A DNA stretch of 64,000 nt from Streptomyces viridosporus (lineage in GTDB: Bacteria; Actinomycetota; Actinomycetes; Streptomycetales; Streptomycetaceae): NCBI RefSeq assembly GCF_002078235.1, contig NZ_MSGP01000004.1:1-64000 (forward strand), read 5' to 3'. Shown piece after piece: positions 38,199-64,000 of the stretch (position 1 is its first letter; the number at the start of each line of letters is the position of its first letter). The notes beneath the pieces were generated by a model. The model had not been told where the DNA came from and searched no databases. It saw only the letters and a program-made list of their open reading frames with translations. Made by a program: the position numbers and the translations under genes.

Positions 38199-38948
38199 TC
38201 AGTCTCGCCGACCGGACGTGGTGGCGCGCAGCAGGGGTGGACTGAGCAGCCATGCTTCTCCGCGGCGGTAGAGAGCAGCCGGGCGCCCGGTGGGAGGAAG
38301 CCGATGGTGTCCGGTCGGCTGTACGAACCCTGTGGTGTTGAGTACCTTTCGGCGGAAGTTGCTCGGGTCGAGGGTCTGTCCCCAGATCACTTGGTACACC
38401 GTCCGCAGCTCTGTGAGCGTGAATGCCTCACCGCAGAAGGCAGTGGCCACAGCGGTGTACTCGAGCTTTCGGCGGACCTCTTCCAGGGCTTCCGTCAGGA
38501 TTTCCCGGTGGTCGAAGGCCAGGCCTAGCGTGCCGTCCTCTAGGCGGGCTGCAGGGGCCCAGAAGGCACGTTCGGCGTCCGTGCCGCCCACGGGGTCCGG
38601 CAGGTCGGGTCCTAGTGCGAGGTAGACGACCGTCACCACTCTGCCTCGGGGGTCACGTCCGGGGTCTCCGTAGGTGCCGAGCTGCTCCAGGTGAAGTCGG
38701 CTGCCGTCGATGCCGGCTTCTTCCGACAGCTCACGGAGGGCTCCCTCACGGAGGGTCTCGTTTTTCTGTACGTAGCCTCCGGGCATTGCGGGCTTGCCGA
38801 GGAAGGGCTCCAGACCGCGCTCGACCAGGAGCATCATCAGCTGATCGTCTCTGAGGGTGAAGATCGCGAGGTCCACGGTCAGCCATGAGGCTTCGACCTC
38901 GTCCGAGTCTTTCAGCCAGTCTTCCACCTGCACCCCTAAAGGTCTCAT
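38199..38948 (-). CDS. Nudix-domain transcriptional regulator, NrtR type
   Basis: Start at 38948 (MRPLGVQVEDWLKD) is preferred because a palindrome lies just upstream and would overlap the alternative start at 38969. The Nudix domain contains a complete Nudix box (GGYVQKNETLREG, then ALRELSEEAGI). A C-terminal winged-helix domain follows (LTELRTVYQVIWGQTLDPSN, FRRKVLNTTGFVQPTG). This architecture is that of NrtR regulators, which sense ADP-ribose and usually control NAD genes. Here the divergent operon encodes membrane and nucleoside-phosphorylase proteins, implying control of an unusual target by an NAD-derived signal. Confidence 0.85.
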   Translation of the reverse strand: MRPLGVQVEDWLKDSDEVEASWLTVDLAIFTLRDDQLMMLLVERGLEPFLGKPAMPGGYVQKNETLREGALRELSEEAGIDGSRLHLEQLGTYGDPGRDPRGRVVTVVYLALGPDLPDPVGGTDAERAFWAPAARLEDGTLGLAFDHREILTEALEEVRRKLEYTAVATAFCGEAFTLTELRTVYQVIWGQTLDPSNFRRKVLNTTGFVQPTGHHRLPPTGRPAALYRRGEAWLLSPPLLRATTSGRRD

Positions 38949-59060: not shown

Positions 59061-59103
59061 CAGACCTAACGGAGTCCTACTCGACGGCCGCCAGATAAAG
59101 ATC

Positions 59104-59283
59104 ATGGCCCTCGTGGAGCAGGGCCTGGATCAGCAGGCCCGCGACCTGATCGACACCGCCCAGCCCACGGAGCCCTGGGAGACCGCCGTCGCCAACCTCC
59201 TTCGCGCTCACTGCCGCCCCGTCGCGGTACCGCTGCCGCGGGCCGACCTCAACCAGGCTCAGCACGCAACCGCCTCGTTTTGA
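59104..59283 (+). CDS. Small hypothetical protein or C-terminal remnant
   Basis: An ATG at 59104 opens MALVEQGLDQQARDLIDTAQ, PTEPWETAVANLLRAHCRPV and a stop. The composition is helical and coding-like, and the frame is also open a little upstream. It may be the end of a gene cut by the IS701 fragment. It overlaps the next gene by TTGA. Confidence 0.45.
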   Translation: MALVEQGLDQQARDLIDTAQPTEPWETAVANLLRAHCRPVAVPLPRADLNQAQHATASF

Positions 59284-59588
59284 CCGATCCCGAGCCCTCG
59301 ATCGCCGTGTTCCAGACCCGTGCGGGCCCGGCCGCCCTGGAATTCGACACCAACGGACCGCACACGAGCTCGCTTGTCCCAGCTCTTGCAAAAGTGGTCC
59401 GCCTCGACGCCTATGCCGCATGTGAAGTGCTGGGCCACCCAGCCGCCCGGGCATTCCTCGACACCGAGCAGGCATCTTCGCTCGGCTCGGTGGTCGCTAA
59501 CGCAGGTCTCGGTGCCGGCGCCCTGCCCGCGGACCACCAGCGATCTCTGTCCGAGTCCGTCGCCTTCGGCCAAGCCGAGCTGAGGTGA
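59280..59588 (+). CDS. Hypothetical protein coupled to the gene upstream
   Basis: TTG start overlapping the previous stop (TTGA). 102 residues: TDPEPSIAVFQTRAGPAALE, FDTNGPHTSSLVPALAKVVR, AYAACEVLGHPAARAFL. A single domain without membrane segments or known motif. The four-base overlap supports reality of both small genes. Confidence 0.55.
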   Translation: MTDPEPSIAVFQTRAGPAALEFDTNGPHTSSLVPALAKVVRLDAYAACEVLGHPAARAFLDTEQASSLGSVVANAGLGAGALPADHQRSLSESVAFGQAELR

Positions 59589-59645
59589 CTTCTGAGACGA
59601 CAAGGCGGCACCAGGCAATCCCCCGAAGGAGGTACCGCAACCCAC

Positions 59646-59726
59646 ATGAGTGATCGAACACAGCATCACAGCCCGCCATACTCAGCTACAGAAGGCGAGG
59701 GCCCAGTATTCGAATTCACGTTCTAG
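59646..59726 (+). CDS. 26-residue ORF with strong ribosome-binding site
   Basis: GAAGGAGG (59625-59632) precedes an ATG at 59646. The peptide begins MSDRTQHHSPPYSAT and ends GPVFEFTF. It lies in a locally AT-richer stretch between small coupled genes. The 13-base spacing is long, so this is a weak call. Confidence 0.25.
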   Translation: MSDRTQHHSPPYSATEGEGPVFEFTF

Positions 59727-59810
59727 ATTTCGCCCGTATCCACCCGTTACGGGGATGCAAGAACCCTCGTTACCCGATCACCAGTCCGCATCGCACCCCG
59801 AGGAGCCCTC

Positions 59811-59954
59811 ATGAATCCCGTACGCCTTCCTGCGTTCGTTCATCCCGCGTTCGAAAACGCCACCGGCACCTCGGGCACCCCTCTGCACTCCGCCGTCGAC
59901 CGCGACGCCCGGCCCACTCGTGAGTCACGACCGGATACGAGGTACCTGGCATGA
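59811..59954 (+). CDS. 47-residue ORF, first of a coupled small-gene set
   Basis: GAGGAG lies five bases before the ATG. Sequence NPVRLPAFVHPAFENATGTS and GTPLHSAVDRDARPTRES. It overlaps the next small gene by ATGA. No family is known. Polar composition without helices; a leader or precursor peptide is possible but unsupported. Confidence 0.45.
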   Translation: MNPVRLPAFVHPAFENATGTSGTPLHSAVDRDARPTRESRPDTRYLA

Positions 59955-60157
59955 CTCGCACCGCCATCCCGCTGAAGCCGGCACATCCGGACAAGGGGTA
60001 TGGCCGTCAGCTCGTCGCGGCTGACCGGGCGCTGAGAGCGTTCGCTGCAGTCAATGCCGCGAGCGCCCTCGCCTACGGTCTCCGGCACGGCAATGCCCTC
60101 GTGGCCGCGAGGGACCGAGGCGCCGTCGAACGCCTGGTGCAGGAGGACCGTCTATGA
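59951..60157 (+). CDS. 68-residue hypothetical protein
   Basis: ATG overlaps the stop of the 47-residue ORF. TRTAIPLKPAHPDKGYGRQL, VAADRALRAFAAVNAASALA, YGLRHGNALVAARDRGAVER: one amphipathic helical region. Its stop in turn overlaps an ATG at 60154 (ATGA), continuing the coupled series toward the Nudix genes. Confidence 0.5.
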   Translation: MTRTAIPLKPAHPDKGYGRQLVAADRALRAFAAVNAASALAYGLRHGNALVAARDRGAVERLVQEDRL

Positions 60158-60269
60158 GTGCGGACCGCACGTGTTCGCCAAGAAGCACACCCGTATCACC
60201 GTGTCCTGGCCGATCGTGCCCGGCAGCGCTGCCCTGCTCCTCGACCCTGGGACCTGCCAGGCCAGATGA
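60154..60269 (+). pseudogene. Small ORF, apparently frameshifted
   Basis: The ATG at 60154 reads MSADRT, but the protein-like continuation VFAKKHTRITVSWPIVPGSA and ALLLDPGTCQAR with a stop is in the neighbouring frame. A one-base change at about 60172 would restore a ~38-residue product. Low certainty. Confidence 0.3.
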
Positions 60270-60347
60270 ACGGCGGTGCCTCCTGATCGCTGCTCGCCGG
60301 TCCACGCTGCACACTCGCTCGTCCACCGTCTCGGAAGGCAGAGATAC

Positions 60348-61484
60348 GTGTCCTCTCCCGTCTCCCCTTCGGATCACGTCTCACCGCGTGCCGCTCTGCC
60401 GACAGCGCAGTACGCCGCATCCCGGCATGCGGTGTGGCTCGGCGCCGCCGCGATCATCACCGACGAGGTCGGCCGTGTCCTGCTGGTGCACCCCACCTAC
60501 CACAAGGACGGCTCGTGGCTGCTGCCCGGAGGCGTCGTCGAACCCGGCGAGCACCCGCACGTCGCCTGTCGACGCGAGATCACCGAAGAACTGGGCCTGG
60601 ATCTGCCCCTGTCGGCCGTGCTCGCCGTCCACTCCTTCTCCCCGCACCACCCCGACCTTCAGCCCGGTACGCCCTGCCCCGGCGAGGTCCGGTTCGTCTT
60701 CGACGGGGGAACCCTCAACCCCGACCAGGTGGAGGCGATCCGCCTGCCGCGCCGGGAGTTGTCCGAGTACGCCTTCCTGGAGACCCGGGACGCGGTGCAG
60801 CGGCTGCGGCCCGTGGACGGGCAGATCATGCTCGCCGCCTACCGTGCCCGGCTCGGGAACACCGCCACCGCTCACCTCGCCGACGGCCGGCACATTCTCG
60901 ACGTCCCGGCGTTGGACCGCCATGACGTCCACGTCCGCTACCGGCCCCTGTGGGACAGCCCTCTCAACCGCGGCCTCATCCCCGGGCAGATGCCTGTGCA
61001 GCAAGTCTGGGCGTGGTGCTTCGTCCCCGACGGCCGGGTCGTCCTCGTGGCCGACCTCGGCCCGCGGGGTGCGCTGCCGATGCTGCCCGGCGGCACCGTG
61101 GAGAAGACCGACGCGACGCCCGAGGACACCCTGCACCGCGAAGCCGCCGAGGAAGCCCAGCTCAGTCTGGCCGATCCGGTACGACTGGGCTGGGTGCTGG
61201 ACGAGACCGGCGAGGTCTACGGCGGCGTGGGGCCCAACGCCCGGCTCCGCCTGGCAGCCCGGGTCACCGCCATCGGCCCGGCGGCCGTCGACCCCGCCAC
61301 CGGCCACTCCTTCGCCCGCCTGCTCGCCACCCCCGCCCAGACGGCCGCCCTGCTGGGCTGGGGCCCGCCCGGCGCGCGGCAAGCCCAGCTCGCGGTGGAG
61401 ACGGCACGGGAGAGGTGGGGTCTGCCCGCCGCTCGCTCCGCCGCCATCGAGGAGATCCCTGCGGAGGGGATGCGGCTGAGCTGA
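60348..61484 (+). CDS. Double-Nudix hydrolase
   Basis: GTG at 60348 after GGAAGGCAGAG. 378 residues with two Nudix domains. The first is complete (VWLGAAAIITDEVGRVLLVH; box GGVVEPGEHPHVACRR and EITEELGL, about 61-84). The second is at about 225-360 (VQQVWAWCFVPDGRVVLVAD; box GGTVEKTDATPEDTLHR and EAAEEAQL), in which the box Glu is Asp and the final Gly is Gln, so catalysis may be lost. Tandem Nudix proteins clean up or modify nucleotide-sugar-like compounds. It is followed 56 bases later by a triple-Nudix gene. Confidence 0.88.
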   Translation: MSSPVSPSDHVSPRAALPTAQYAASRHAVWLGAAAIITDEVGRVLLVHPTYHKDGSWLLPGGVVEPGEHPHVACRREITEELGLDLPLSAVLAVHSFSPHHPDLQPGTPCPGEVRFVFDGGTLNPDQVEAIRLPRRELSEYAFLETRDAVQRLRPVDGQIMLAAYRARLGNTATAHLADGRHILDVPALDRHDVHVRYRPLWDSPLNRGLIPGQMPVQQVWAWCFVPDGRVVLVADLGPRGALPMLPGGTVEKTDATPEDTLHREAAEEAQLSLADPVRLGWVLDETGEVYGGVGPNARLRLAARVTAIGPAAVDPATGHSFARLLATPAQTAALLGWGPPGARQAQLAVETARERWGLPAARSAAIEEIPAEGMRLS

Positions 61485-61540
61485 CACGAACGACCGCCAG
61501 CCTCGACTCGTCCCGCTCCACGTCCCTCTGAGGTAGCCCC

Positions 61541-63025
61541 ATGCCGTTGTCGCACGACCACATCCGCACCACCGTCGCCACCTACCTCGCGCGCCACCCT
61601 CACGAGCGCGAGCAGCTCGGCGGCCTCCTGGACGCCCTCGACCGTCCCACCGACATCGCCAGCCGCTCCACCTTCACCGGACACGTCACTTGCGGCGCGA
61701 TCGTCGTCGACGACGTCGGCCGCGTCCTGCACGTGCTGCACCTGGCGAGCGGGAAGGTCCTCGCTCCCGGCGGACACACCGAGCCCGCCGACGAGTCCCT
61801 GGCAGCAGCAGCGCTACGGGAGTTGCACGAGGAGACCGGGATCCCGCCCCGGGCCGTCACGCCGTGGCCCGGTTACGAGACCGTGCCGTTCGACATCGAC
61901 ATCCACGACATCGACGCCCGCCCGGGCAAAGGCGAACCCGGCCACCAGCACTTCGACCTCCGGTTCCTCTTCCGCCTGCACACCGCGACCGAGGCGCCGG
62001 TGGTGCTGCAGGAAGAGGAGGTCGCCGGCATCGAGTGGCGTCCCGTGGGCCGGGTGGCCTCCTCCTCCCTGCGCGAGAAACTGCTCAAGCTAACCTCGGA
62101 GACTGAACCGGAGACGGCCAACGCCTCCGCCCTGATCTACAACGACCGCGGCGAGTACCTGCTCCACCTGCGCGACTACTTCCCCGGCCAGATCTGGGAG
62201 CCGGGCATGTGGTCCCTGCTGGGCGGCGGCCGAGAGCCCCAGGACGCCACCCTGGAGCACACCGTGCGGCGCGAACTGGCCGAGGAAGCCGGCCTCGACC
62301 TCGCCGACCTGACCCCGTTCGGCACCGAGTACGCCTCCGACGACGCCGTCGCGAGCGTGCCCATCGCCATCTACGCCGGCCGCTGGAACGGCGATCCCCG
62401 CGACCTCCGGCTGACGGAAGGGGTGATGCTGGCCTGGTTCGCCCCGGACGACCTCCACCGCCTGCGCATCGCGGACACCACCAGCGACCTCGTACGGCGC
62501 CACGCCGTCAGCCGCCCGGCCAGCACCACGCGGCAGAGCGGGCTCGCACCGCAGGAGGAGCGCCGTCCAGCTTCGCCGCACGGCACGGTCCTCAACGTCA
62601 TCGGCGTCCACCTCTACCTGGAGCGGCCCGACGGGACGGTGCTGCTCGGGCTGCGCCACCCCGACTCCGCATTCGCGCCGTCCACCTGGCACGTCCTGGC
62701 CGGCCACTGCGAGCAGGAGAGCGCCATCACCTGCCTGATCAGGGAGGCACGGGAGGAAGCCGGCCTGTACATCGAGCGCCAGGACGTCGAACTCGTCCAC
62801 ATCGTCCACCACATCGACCGTGCCGGGGACCGGCCCCGCATGGGCCTGTTTTTCCGCGCTCGTACCTGGAGCGGTGAGCCGGAGCTGCGTGAGCCGGACA
62901 AGTGCACCCAGTGGAAGTTCTGGGACCCCGCCACGCTGCCCGACAATCTCGTTTCCTACACCCGCCAAGCCATCGCGAAGATCCAGAACGGGAAGCTGTA
63001 CAGCGAGACGGGCTGGCCTGCATGA
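61541..63025 (+). CDS. Triple-Nudix fusion protein
   Basis: 494 residues with three Nudix domains. Box 1 is at about 77-101 (GGHTEPADESLAAAALR, ELHEETGI), in the NUDIX/GNAT-linked subclass. Box 2 is at about 228-252 (GGGREPQDATLEHTVRR, ELAEEAGL). Box 3 is at about 388-409 (GHCEQESAITCLIR, EAREEAGL), one residue shorter than canonical between Gly and Glu. Each is preceded by a typical strand (GAIVVDDVGRVLHVLHL; ANASALIYNDRGEYLLHLRD; NVIGVHLYLERPDGTVLLGL). It overlaps the kinase-dipeptidase gene by ATGA, so all five Nudix domains and the kinase appear to act in one process. Confidence 0.88.
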   Translation: MPLSHDHIRTTVATYLARHPHEREQLGGLLDALDRPTDIASRSTFTGHVTCGAIVVDDVGRVLHVLHLASGKVLAPGGHTEPADESLAAAALRELHEETGIPPRAVTPWPGYETVPFDIDIHDIDARPGKGEPGHQHFDLRFLFRLHTATEAPVVLQEEEVAGIEWRPVGRVASSSLREKLLKLTSETEPETANASALIYNDRGEYLLHLRDYFPGQIWEPGMWSLLGGGREPQDATLEHTVRRELAEEAGLDLADLTPFGTEYASDDAVASVPIAIYAGRWNGDPRDLRLTEGVMLAWFAPDDLHRLRIADTTSDLVRRHAVSRPASTTRQSGLAPQEERRPASPHGTVLNVIGVHLYLERPDGTVLLGLRHPDSAFAPSTWHVLAGHCEQESAITCLIREAREEAGLYIERQDVELVHIVHHIDRAGDRPRMGLFFRARTWSGEPELREPDKCTQWKFWDPATLPDNLVSYTRQAIAKIQNGKLYSETGWPA

Positions 63026-64000
63026 CCGGCACGCCGAGCGGCGCACACCGTCGTGTGTCCACTGTGACTGCGGCCGGCCGTGAGGACACCCGCCTGGTGG
63101 TGATCCGCGGCAACTCGGCGTCAGGCAAGTCAAGCGTGGCCCAGGGCCTGCGAGATCGCTACGGCCGCGGGATCGCGATCGTGGGCCAGGACGTGATCCG
63201 CCGGAACGTGCTCAGGGAACACGACACCGCGCGCGGCGCCAACGTCGCCCTGCTGGGCAGGATCGCACGCGAAGCACTGAACGCCGGCTTTCATGTGGTG
63301 CTTGAGGGGATCCTGTACGCCGATCGCTACAGCCACATGATCACGTCTCTGGTACGGGACCACCGTGGCGTCTCCTGCTGCTACTACCTGGACGTGCCGC
63401 TGGAAACGACGTTTGTCCGACACGCGTCGAAGGCGGATGCCGCGTACCTGGCGCAAGTCACCGACAGCCACCTCGCCTCCTGGTACCGCGAGCTGGATCT
63501 GCTGCCCGGCAGTCTGGAGACCGTGATCCCGGCCGACAGCACGCTGCAGGACACTATCGCGCGAATCCTGCGCGAAACCGACCTGGCCTCTGCCTTCCCC
63601 ATCCCACCGCCGCAGTGCAAGCCGTCACAGGGAGATTCGATGAACAGTCCGGTGTTGATGTCCGACCCGCGGGTCGCCGCGATCCCGGTGCGCGAGTGCG
63701 GGGAGCCGCTCGTCGACGTGCGTGACCACAGCTTCCGCGTCGATCCCCGCAAGCAAGATCCGCTGGGCGCATTCGCCCACGTCCGCGAGGGCGTCCTGGC
63801 CCGGCTGGAGCACGCCCGCTCGCTCCTGCCCGCCGGCACCGACCTGCTGTTCATCGAGGGCTACCGGCCGCTGGCCCTACAGCAGCACTACTTCACCGAG
63901 TACCGGGACGAGCTCGCCGCCGCTCACCCCGGCTGGACCGCTGAGCAGCTGCACCAGGCGGCCAGCCGGTACGTGTCGCCGCCGGAGATCGCGCCCCACT
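63022..64000 (+). CDS. P-loop kinase in frame with VanX-type D-Ala-D-Ala dipeptidase, runs off the window
   Basis: ATG overlaps the triple-Nudix stop. The frame is open to the window end (326 codons). Residues 1-200 form a small-molecule-kinase-like domain: LVVIRGNSASGKSSVAQGLR (Walker A), AIVGQDVIRRNVLREHDTAR, NAGFHVVLEGILYADRYSHM and YYLDVPLETTFVRHASK. From Met207 the sequence becomes a peptidase M15D domain: MNSPVLMSDPRVAAIPVREC, DLLFIEGYRPLALQQHYFTE and ASRYVSPPEIAPH. A GGGAG ribosome-binding site precedes Met207 (63640), so the dipeptidase may also be made separately. No stop separates the two parts. Confidence 0.82.
   Translation, partial: MTGTPSGAHRRVSTVTAAGREDTRLVVIRGNSASGKSSVAQGLRDRYGRGIAIVGQDVIRRNVLREHDTARGANVALLGRIAREALNAGFHVVLEGILYADRYSHMITSLVRDHRGVSCCYYLDVPLETTFVRHASKADAAYLAQVTDSHLASWYRELDLLPGSLETVIPADSTLQDTIARILRETDLASAFPIPPPQCKPSQGDSMNSPVLMSDPRVAAIPVRECGEPLVDVRDHSFRVDPRKQDPLGAFAHVREGVLARLEHARSLLPAGTDLLFIEGYRPLALQQHYFTEYRDELAAAHPGWTAEQLHQAASRYVSPPEIAPH
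63630..63642 (+). promoter_or_regulatory. Internal ribosome-binding site and in-frame start of the dipeptidase part
   Basis: GGGAG lies five to six bases before an ATG at 63640 that is in frame with the kinase. It allows either a fused product or separate translation of the VanX-type part. Such an internal start within an open frame is unusual and decides how the gene should be modelled. Confidence 0.5.

Follow-up and report, generated by a model that had tools for sequence, protein, structure and literature searches.

Five Nudix domains, a P-loop kinase and a VanX-like peptidase are encoded side by side at the right end of the first 64,000 bases of contig NZ_MSGP01000004.1 of Streptomyces viridosporus. 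This stretch is called the window; the contig has 64,860 bases and belongs to a fragmented assembly (8.1 Mb, 986 contigs). The question raised by the locus is what such enzymes do together. A preliminary description of the sequence saw no obvious known pathway for them, and this view was revised once the set was recognized as what is left here of a larger cassette, without its exporter and lanthipeptide genes. The cassette is a conserved accessory unit of Streptomyces natural-product loci, and no published description of it was found in the open-licence literature searched. In the best explanation, which has a probability of about one half, the window set is the remainder of an exporter-linked cassette that tailors a peptide or nucleoside product or protects the producer from it. 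The genomic side of this explanation is well supported; the biochemical role of the cassette is inferred.

The window genes and the larger cassette

All genes of the set are on the + strand, and the members and their ATGA coupling named in the preliminary description were confirmed by open reading frames (ORFs) and Pfam. The double-Nudix ORF (60348..61484) has its first domain at 60441-60827 and a degenerate second domain at 61002-61205, in which the Nudix box reads REAAEEAQL. Its earliest possible start is at 60276, and the start that agrees with relatives is 60348. Two NUDIX stretches are found by Pfam in the longer reading from the earlier start (93.2 bits, cut-off 21.1), and the protein is 90% identical to its counterpart in the relative G197. 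The triple-Nudix ORF (61541..63025) has three NUDIX domains at 61682-62059, 62117-62482, and 62600-62971 (145.7 bits, same cut-off). Its stop codon overlaps the start of the kinase-VanX ORF in the ATGA at 63022-63025, and the latter ORF is open through the end of the window to contig position 64290. The kinase part (63022..63639) belongs to AAA_33 and is PRK06762-like, with a Walker A-like GNSASGKSS seen by eye. The VanX-like M15 zinc peptidase part begins at 63640 and runs past position 64000 out of the window. The AAA_33 and Peptidase_M15 profiles score 38.7 and 54.5 bits (cut-off 27 each), and an AlphaFold model of the ORF has a mean predicted local distance difference test score (pLDDT) of 54.4, a quality too low for comparing folds. 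Following the contig beyond the window, as the preliminary description had suggested, revealed the end of this ORF and an ASCH-domain ORF that begins at 64421 and is truncated by the contig end at 64860 (23.3 bits, cut-off 21.2). The G197 relative of the ASCH protein has a C-terminal Nudix domain in addition, which is the sixth Nudix domain of the set.

These genes correspond to the 3' part of a larger unit. In the mapped relatives and the named loci, its members were sought only by matches to reference proteins (E 1e-12). The 295 Streptomyces genomes surveyed carry G-numbers here, and loci carry L-numbers. Gene calls in several neighbourhoods come from a caller based on GC content at third codon positions (GC3), and names such as QueE, reverse transcriptase, and kinase were given there by eye. 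The fullest order, found for example in G116 and L121, is ABC exporter, PIMT, double Nudix, triple Nudix, kinase/VanX, ASCH/Nudix, and methyltransferase/Nudix, and members are gained and lost from locus to locus. Seven genomes (G197, G203, G246, G116, G216, G262, and G092) have LanB, LanC, a fusion of the LanB elimination domain with PIMT, a protein of about 370 amino acids, and the ABC exporter in a long co-directional order. All except G262, whose stretch is too short to reach there, also have an FxLD precursor. The C-terminus of the precursor is CSTGDTCGSSCPSACTTS in five of the six genomes and CGTGDNCGSSCPSACTTS in G116. The FxLD methyltransferase of G197 scores 419.7 bits with TIGR04364 (cut-off 320), and its LanC and LanB elimination domain also exceed their cut-offs. 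A second PIMT gene (PIMT2) comes next in G203, G116, G216, and G262, and it is near full length there and in G237. Among the seven relatives, the triple Nudix is present in all, the double Nudix in all except G203 and G246, the ASCH-Nudix gene in all except G262 and G092, and the methyltransferase-Nudix gene in G203, G246, and G116. Kinase-VanX is intact in G197, G203, G246, and G116.

The link to the exporter extends beyond these genomes. An ABC exporter gene lies upstream, with at most four genes between, in 20 of the 24 mapped relatives that have a near-full-length triple Nudix; G118 and G136 have none, G281 has a fragment, and G099 is truncated by its contig. Distant versions of the cassette are found in G025, G266, and G269, where the triple Nudix is 52-54% identical and LanB and LanC have 35-45% identity to those of G197. 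The genes around these three and around G131 vary and include APH, MFS, HIT, GNAT-Nudix, Nudix-APH, methyltransferase-Nudix-PIMT, and PIG-L genes. In G171 (L088) and G155 (L089) there is a tightly packed stand-alone operon of four genes: ABC, triple Nudix, Nudix(-APH), and methyltransferase-Nudix-PIMT. These operons are flanked by genes that look unrelated by eye, and there is no LanB match in the 20 kb around them.

The window locus is an eroded copy of this cassette, from which the lanthipeptide genes and the exporter are missing. Upstream of the double-Nudix ORF, on the + strand, there is a remnant of the protein of about 370 amino acids (c3reg), which follows LanBC-PIMT in intact clusters. 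This remnant (59077..59597) consists of two overlapping fragments in different frames (tblastn, 4.8e-25 and 2.5e-21). It is followed by a remnant of the PIMT2 C-terminus, also on the + strand (60087..60233; tblastn, 53% over 49 amino acids, 4.5e-08). Window positions 59076-60089 match G203 in blastn at 77%, and the segment that lies between the two remnants in G203, including the exporter, is missing from the window. No FxLD methyltransferase (TIGR04364) over the cut-off is present in the window genome, the best match having 107.2 bits against 320, and its four LanB-N matches (at most 161 bits) are on three other contigs. At the DNA level, the downstream part of the cassette past the contig end was not found in the window genome except for seven short weak matches. 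The upstream remnants and the loss of the FxLD methyltransferase, the exporter, and the downstream part show that the locus has been eroded.

Several other genes were noted near these loci. A conserved module lies downstream of the cassette in G197 (L032 1-9200) and G203 (L039 12829-19901). Its genes encode a CxxCxxC protein with no Pfam match, an enolase-like protein, a 149-amino-acid protein, HAD, methyltransferase, PhyH, YrdC-like, and phosphoketolase-like proteins, and a second PhyH-like protein. The plasmid-borne locus of G025 (L045 10275-11899) has endonuclease/exonuclease/phosphatase-family and 2'-5' RNA ligase-like genes after VanX, beside HIT, Nudix, and PIG-L genes. In the window itself, a separate Nudix-domain gene is found at 38496-38867 on the - strand (58.5 bits), distant from the set.

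The kinase-VanX junction

The kinase and VanX parts had been described as fused in frame. This holds for the ORF, and the refinement is that a free VanX is probably made as well. Scanning named genomes yielded 226 confirmed stretches, of which the best 79 were kept as loci and show whether the two parts are fused or separate. Kinase and VanX are adjacent in 32 of them (L092-L123), and the other 47 have VanX only; in one of the latter a kinase is encoded separately, at a distance of about 10 kb. No stop interrupts the reading frame at the junction in 31 of these 32 loci, the exception being L123 with three stops, and the frame is likewise open in 8 relatives from a strain set that partly overlaps the named loci. 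L106 (in the kinase part) and L120 (at the VanX end) are broken away from the junction. An assembly or stop-codon artefact is therefore ruled out as the source of the fusion. Together with the neighbours that are common to the relatives, the open junction bears out the proposal that the genes form a coupled, conserved set, and neither of two contrary possibilities, a conserved separation of the genes with a stop codon missing from this assembly alone or unrelated neighbours in most genomes, holds. A near-full-length kinase-VanX match (at least 408 of 422 residues) occurs in at least 10 of the 295 genomes, including that of the window, and G281 has a partial one; a match to either half occurs in at least 177.

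An internal Shine-Dalgarno-like AGGGAG (63629..63634, + strand) precedes the start codon of VanX at 63640. Of 35 distinct intact ORFs, 31 retain such a site together with an ATG or GTG start, so that free VanX is probably also made from the internal start. The exceptions are L102, in which the site is altered, L108 (GTC), G118 (CTG), and L116 from Streptomyces parvulus JCM 4068, in which the site and the start codon are both gone, so that only the fusion can be produced there. G246 keeps AGGAAG and ATG. Of the 31 distinct ORFs with a glycine at the site, 30 encode it by GGA, a codon that accounts for 70 of 917 glycine codons elsewhere; this count covers ORFs that have the LMSD landmark, which leaves out L116/G200, G246, and G118, and it also leaves out L123. 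In G131 a stand-alone VanX begins at the position of the internal methionine of the fused ORF. The in-frame ORF, in which the internal ribosome-binding site is mostly conserved, is a good example of a single gene that probably yields two proteins.

Possible function and alternative explanations

The distribution of the triple-Nudix gene and its neighbours suggests a connection to natural products. The preliminary description considered a fusion of three Nudix modules to be rare, and this does not hold within the genus: at least 51 near-full-length genes, with alignments of about 450 or more of 494 residues and shorter ones excluded, occur in at least 46 of the 295 Streptomyces genomes. In a class-wide sample of 345 genomes from 126 genera, strong matches were found in 5 genomes, all of the window's genus, and in none of the 125 other genera. 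Outside Streptomyces, Actinacidiphila rubida carries the set (L104), and Embleya plasmids give triple-Nudix matches. Triple-Nudix homologues are present in 42 plasmid records, 39 of which are from Streptomyces. Homologues of kinase-VanX are present in 63, nearly all of them matching one half, and one covers at least 80% of the fusion. Three plasmid records that were inspected are linear and 367-437 kb in size. On the plasmid of NBC_01166, the triple Nudix and kinase-VanX are near integrase genes, and no lanthipeptide gene is annotated in the 37 kb around them.

An over-cut-off FxLD-type methyltransferase gene lies within 8 kb of 28 of the 51 best triple-Nudix matches listed, where uniform placement in 9-Mb genomes gives an expectation of 0.21. 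Within 25 kb, LanB is found near 11 of these 51 genes, FolE near 5, both near none, and either near 16. The LanB proximity was computed with the 29 strongest LanB matches, and weaker ones were checked by eye, none being near a triple-Nudix gene. Nudix sets lie beside 7-deazaguanine-type QueE/FolE genes in G290 (L035, L063), in G237 (L080), and on plasmid pFRL3 (L173). FolE was confirmed by Pfam; on pFRL3 the identification of QueE and FolE comes from the record annotation, which also gives a phosphoribosyltransferase, a radical SAM protein, an aminotransferase, and fxlM. A reverse-transcriptase-like gene was also seen by eye in G290. These contexts agree with the nucleoside or peptide antibiotic theme raised in the preliminary description. 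Salvage of wall precursors, the other theme raised there, gained no support, no test having been directed at it. A cassette common to class I lanthipeptide clusters and 7-deazaguanine-type sets points to chemistry or self-protection that is not discussed in the literature examined.

Since related cassettes occur beside a peptide core, beside a 7-deazaguanine-type core, or alone, protection or export-linked processing appears to be favoured over an essential biosynthetic step. In such a role, the Nudix domains would act as hydrolases on the product or its precursor in a phosphate-linked, nucleotide-type form, the kinase would phosphorylate a small-molecule hydroxyl, and the VanX-like zinc peptidase would cleave a short peptide or dipeptide. 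Translation from the first start codon would give kinase and VanX in a single chain, and the internal start, kept in most relatives, probably yields free VanX besides. Together the enzymes may tailor or detoxify the product within the producer, and the exporter would remove the finished product. In the window strain the exporter and the peptide-making genes have been lost, so the enzymes would act alone or be vestigial.

Several observations weigh against this explanation. No substrate is known for any enzyme of the cassette. The linked methyltransferases are partly the cassette's own PIMT genes (G237, G107, G171, and G155), so that a lanthipeptide core is shown only by the 11 LanB cases. Neither LanB nor FolE is found within 25 kb in 35 of the 51 listed loci, some of which are on short contigs. 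FxLD methyltransferases occur in at least 127 of the 295 genomes, and a near-full-length triple-Nudix gene is near one in 26 among the matches listed, which indicates that the cassette is not required for the lanthipeptide core. Kinase-VanX is broken in G216 and G092 and absent in G262, although their lanthipeptide loci are complete. Finally, the ABC exporter is not in the window genome, where the best match is 38% identical and lies elsewhere, and the decayed neighbourhood may indicate a dying locus.

The last point leads to the view that the window genes are a decaying remnant without function. The genome-wide absence of an over-cut-off FxLD methyltransferase, the lost exporter, the upstream remnants, and the barely detectable downstream part all fit this view, as do the broken copies in the relatives L106, L120, and L123. 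It is unlikely, however, because all ORFs of the set are open, the active sites are conserved, and the domains have ratios of replacement to silent substitution rates (dN/dS) of 0.13-0.54. The RE..EE Nudix core is present in all three domains of 23 of 23 aligned triple-Nudix proteins, the least similar of which are about 50% identical; in its upstream part the 23-residue Nudix box deviates from the consensus in these proteins. In the VanX part, the M15 columns R282, H326, D333, E394, and H397 are invariant across 26 sequences, their roles being assigned via alignment to PDB 1r44 and, in addition, by the VanX residue numbering. The dN/dS values are 0.19-0.30 for the kinase (window against 7 relatives), 0.13-0.21 for the VanX part, 0.18-0.37 for the triple-Nudix domains, and 0.23-0.54 for the double-Nudix domains (the last three against close relatives), and about 0.4 for the ASCH part (against G197). 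The 21-codon kinase-VanX linker has values of 0.16-0.93, and the linker ahead of the third Nudix domain 0.34-1.26. Compared to the distant triple-Nudix homologue of G025, the domains have values of 0.43-0.68, a range where simple counting is least reliable. There is also no excess of replacement changes on the window branch: it has 40 replacement (N) and 42 silent (S) changes, the same as the G197 branch (40 N/42 S), although G197 retains the lanthipeptide genes and the exporter.

A biosynthetic role is rather unlikely. The set would then build or attach a part derived from a nucleotide or sugar, and the metabolite that receives it would be a second one, not a lanthipeptide, encoded by chance beside the FxLD genes. 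In G197 and G203 the set runs on into the CxxCxxC/enolase-like/HAD/methyltransferase/PhyH/YrdC-like/phosphoketolase-like module, and QueE/FolE neighbours are found in G290, G237, and pFRL3, the last with its phosphoribosyltransferase and aminotransferase. However, among the 32 named loci with kinase-VanX, the gene that opens the phosphoketolase module was found in 6 and fragments of it in 2 others (some contigs end early), and the stand-alone four-gene units show no visible biosynthetic core. Housekeeping enzymes are known in the Nudix, M15, and AAA_33 families, and 44 of the 47 VanX-only loci lack any reference Nudix protein of the set, so general nucleotide and peptide house-cleaning unlinked to secondary metabolism has to be considered too. 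It is very improbable in view of the non-random linkage of the listed triple-Nudix genes to FxLD-type methyltransferases and to LanB or FolE, the linkage to the ABC exporter, and a distribution that is patchy, partly on plasmids, and in the class-wide sample confined to the window's genus. A stronger form of the tailoring and self-protection explanation is quite unlikely. It supposes a portable island for self-resistance and tailoring, with the ABC exporter bound genetically to multi-Nudix, PIMT-type, and kinase/VanX-type enzymes. The island would serve FxLD lanthipeptides as well as 7-deazapurine-type nucleosides because both pass through a nucleotide-linked form. If it were true, lanthipeptides would be conjugated to a nucleotide or processed through one.

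Comparison with known systems

Among the closest known systems are class I lanthipeptide clusters of the FxLD type (lanthimiditide clusters) that include LanSA/PIMT; olv of Streptomyces olivaceus NRRL B-3009 is an example. They share with relatives of the window set the FxLD precursor, LanB, LanC, and the fusion of PIMT with the LanB elimination domain; the window strain differs in having lost the lanthipeptide genes. The fusion of PIMT to the elimination (glutamyl lyase) domain is already described in the available text of two papers, as is the formation of aspartimide or isoaspartate by the PIMT enzymes of lanthipeptide clusters (PMC7268733; PMC13001092). According to the first of these, the four largest families of class I lanthipeptides come from actinobacteria, have a PIMT-type gene, and are largely uncharacterised (PMC7268733). 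The term Nudix does not appear in the main text of either paper (PMC7268733; PMC13001092), and the available text of the pamtide paper contains no Nudix, kinase, or plasmid term (PMC10787088). S. olivaceus NRRL B-3009 has a partial cassette on contig 63 (L113), with a triple Nudix matched only from residue 200 and a 42% PIMT-type match; no LanB or LanC match lies in the 21 kb around it.

The VanX part resembles the VanX/DdpX D-Ala-D-Ala dipeptidases of family M15 in the R, H, D, E, and H columns, and it aligns to PDB 1r44 over residues 64-196. It differs in being joined to a kinase and in scoring far under the NCBIfam cut-offs (35.6 of 320 bits for VanX and 63.8 of 176 for PRK10178). No vanH or vanA, as in a vanHAX operon, is among the annotated neighbours in the three plasmid records, no dedicated search having been made. 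The best family match of the kinase part is to the PRK06762-type P-loop kinases (AAA_33) over residues 16-188, with 189.8 bits; this is under the family cut-off of 258, and the NCBIfam name is 'hypothetical protein'. Seven proteins were also compared to defence systems with PADLOC. All five Nudix-bearing ones match the candidate family PDC-S07 at 16-52 bits, other components of any system not having been sought. The methyltransferase part of two relatives' proteins matches mad2 (60 and 108 bits), and kinase-VanX and HIT have no match.

Nucleoside-antibiotic clusters of Streptomyces are a further point of comparison. According to the respective papers, TubG carries out the final hydrolysis in the formation of tubercidin, a nucleoside antibiotic (PMC6112128), and Pur7 of puromycin is counted among the resistance-mediating enzymes (PMC11641026). 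Like the set described here, these clusters place a Nudix gene in a Streptomyces antibiotic locus, the tub cluster also having a kinase and an MFS gene and the pur cluster an acetyltransferase (PMC6112128; PMC11641026). TubG is a protein of 168 amino acids, whereas the present cassette has two- and three-domain Nudix proteins and a kinase-VanX ORF and is found beside different biosynthetic cores. The use of Nudix enzymes for tailoring or protection in nucleoside-antibiotic clusters is thus a precedent for the role proposed for the cassette.

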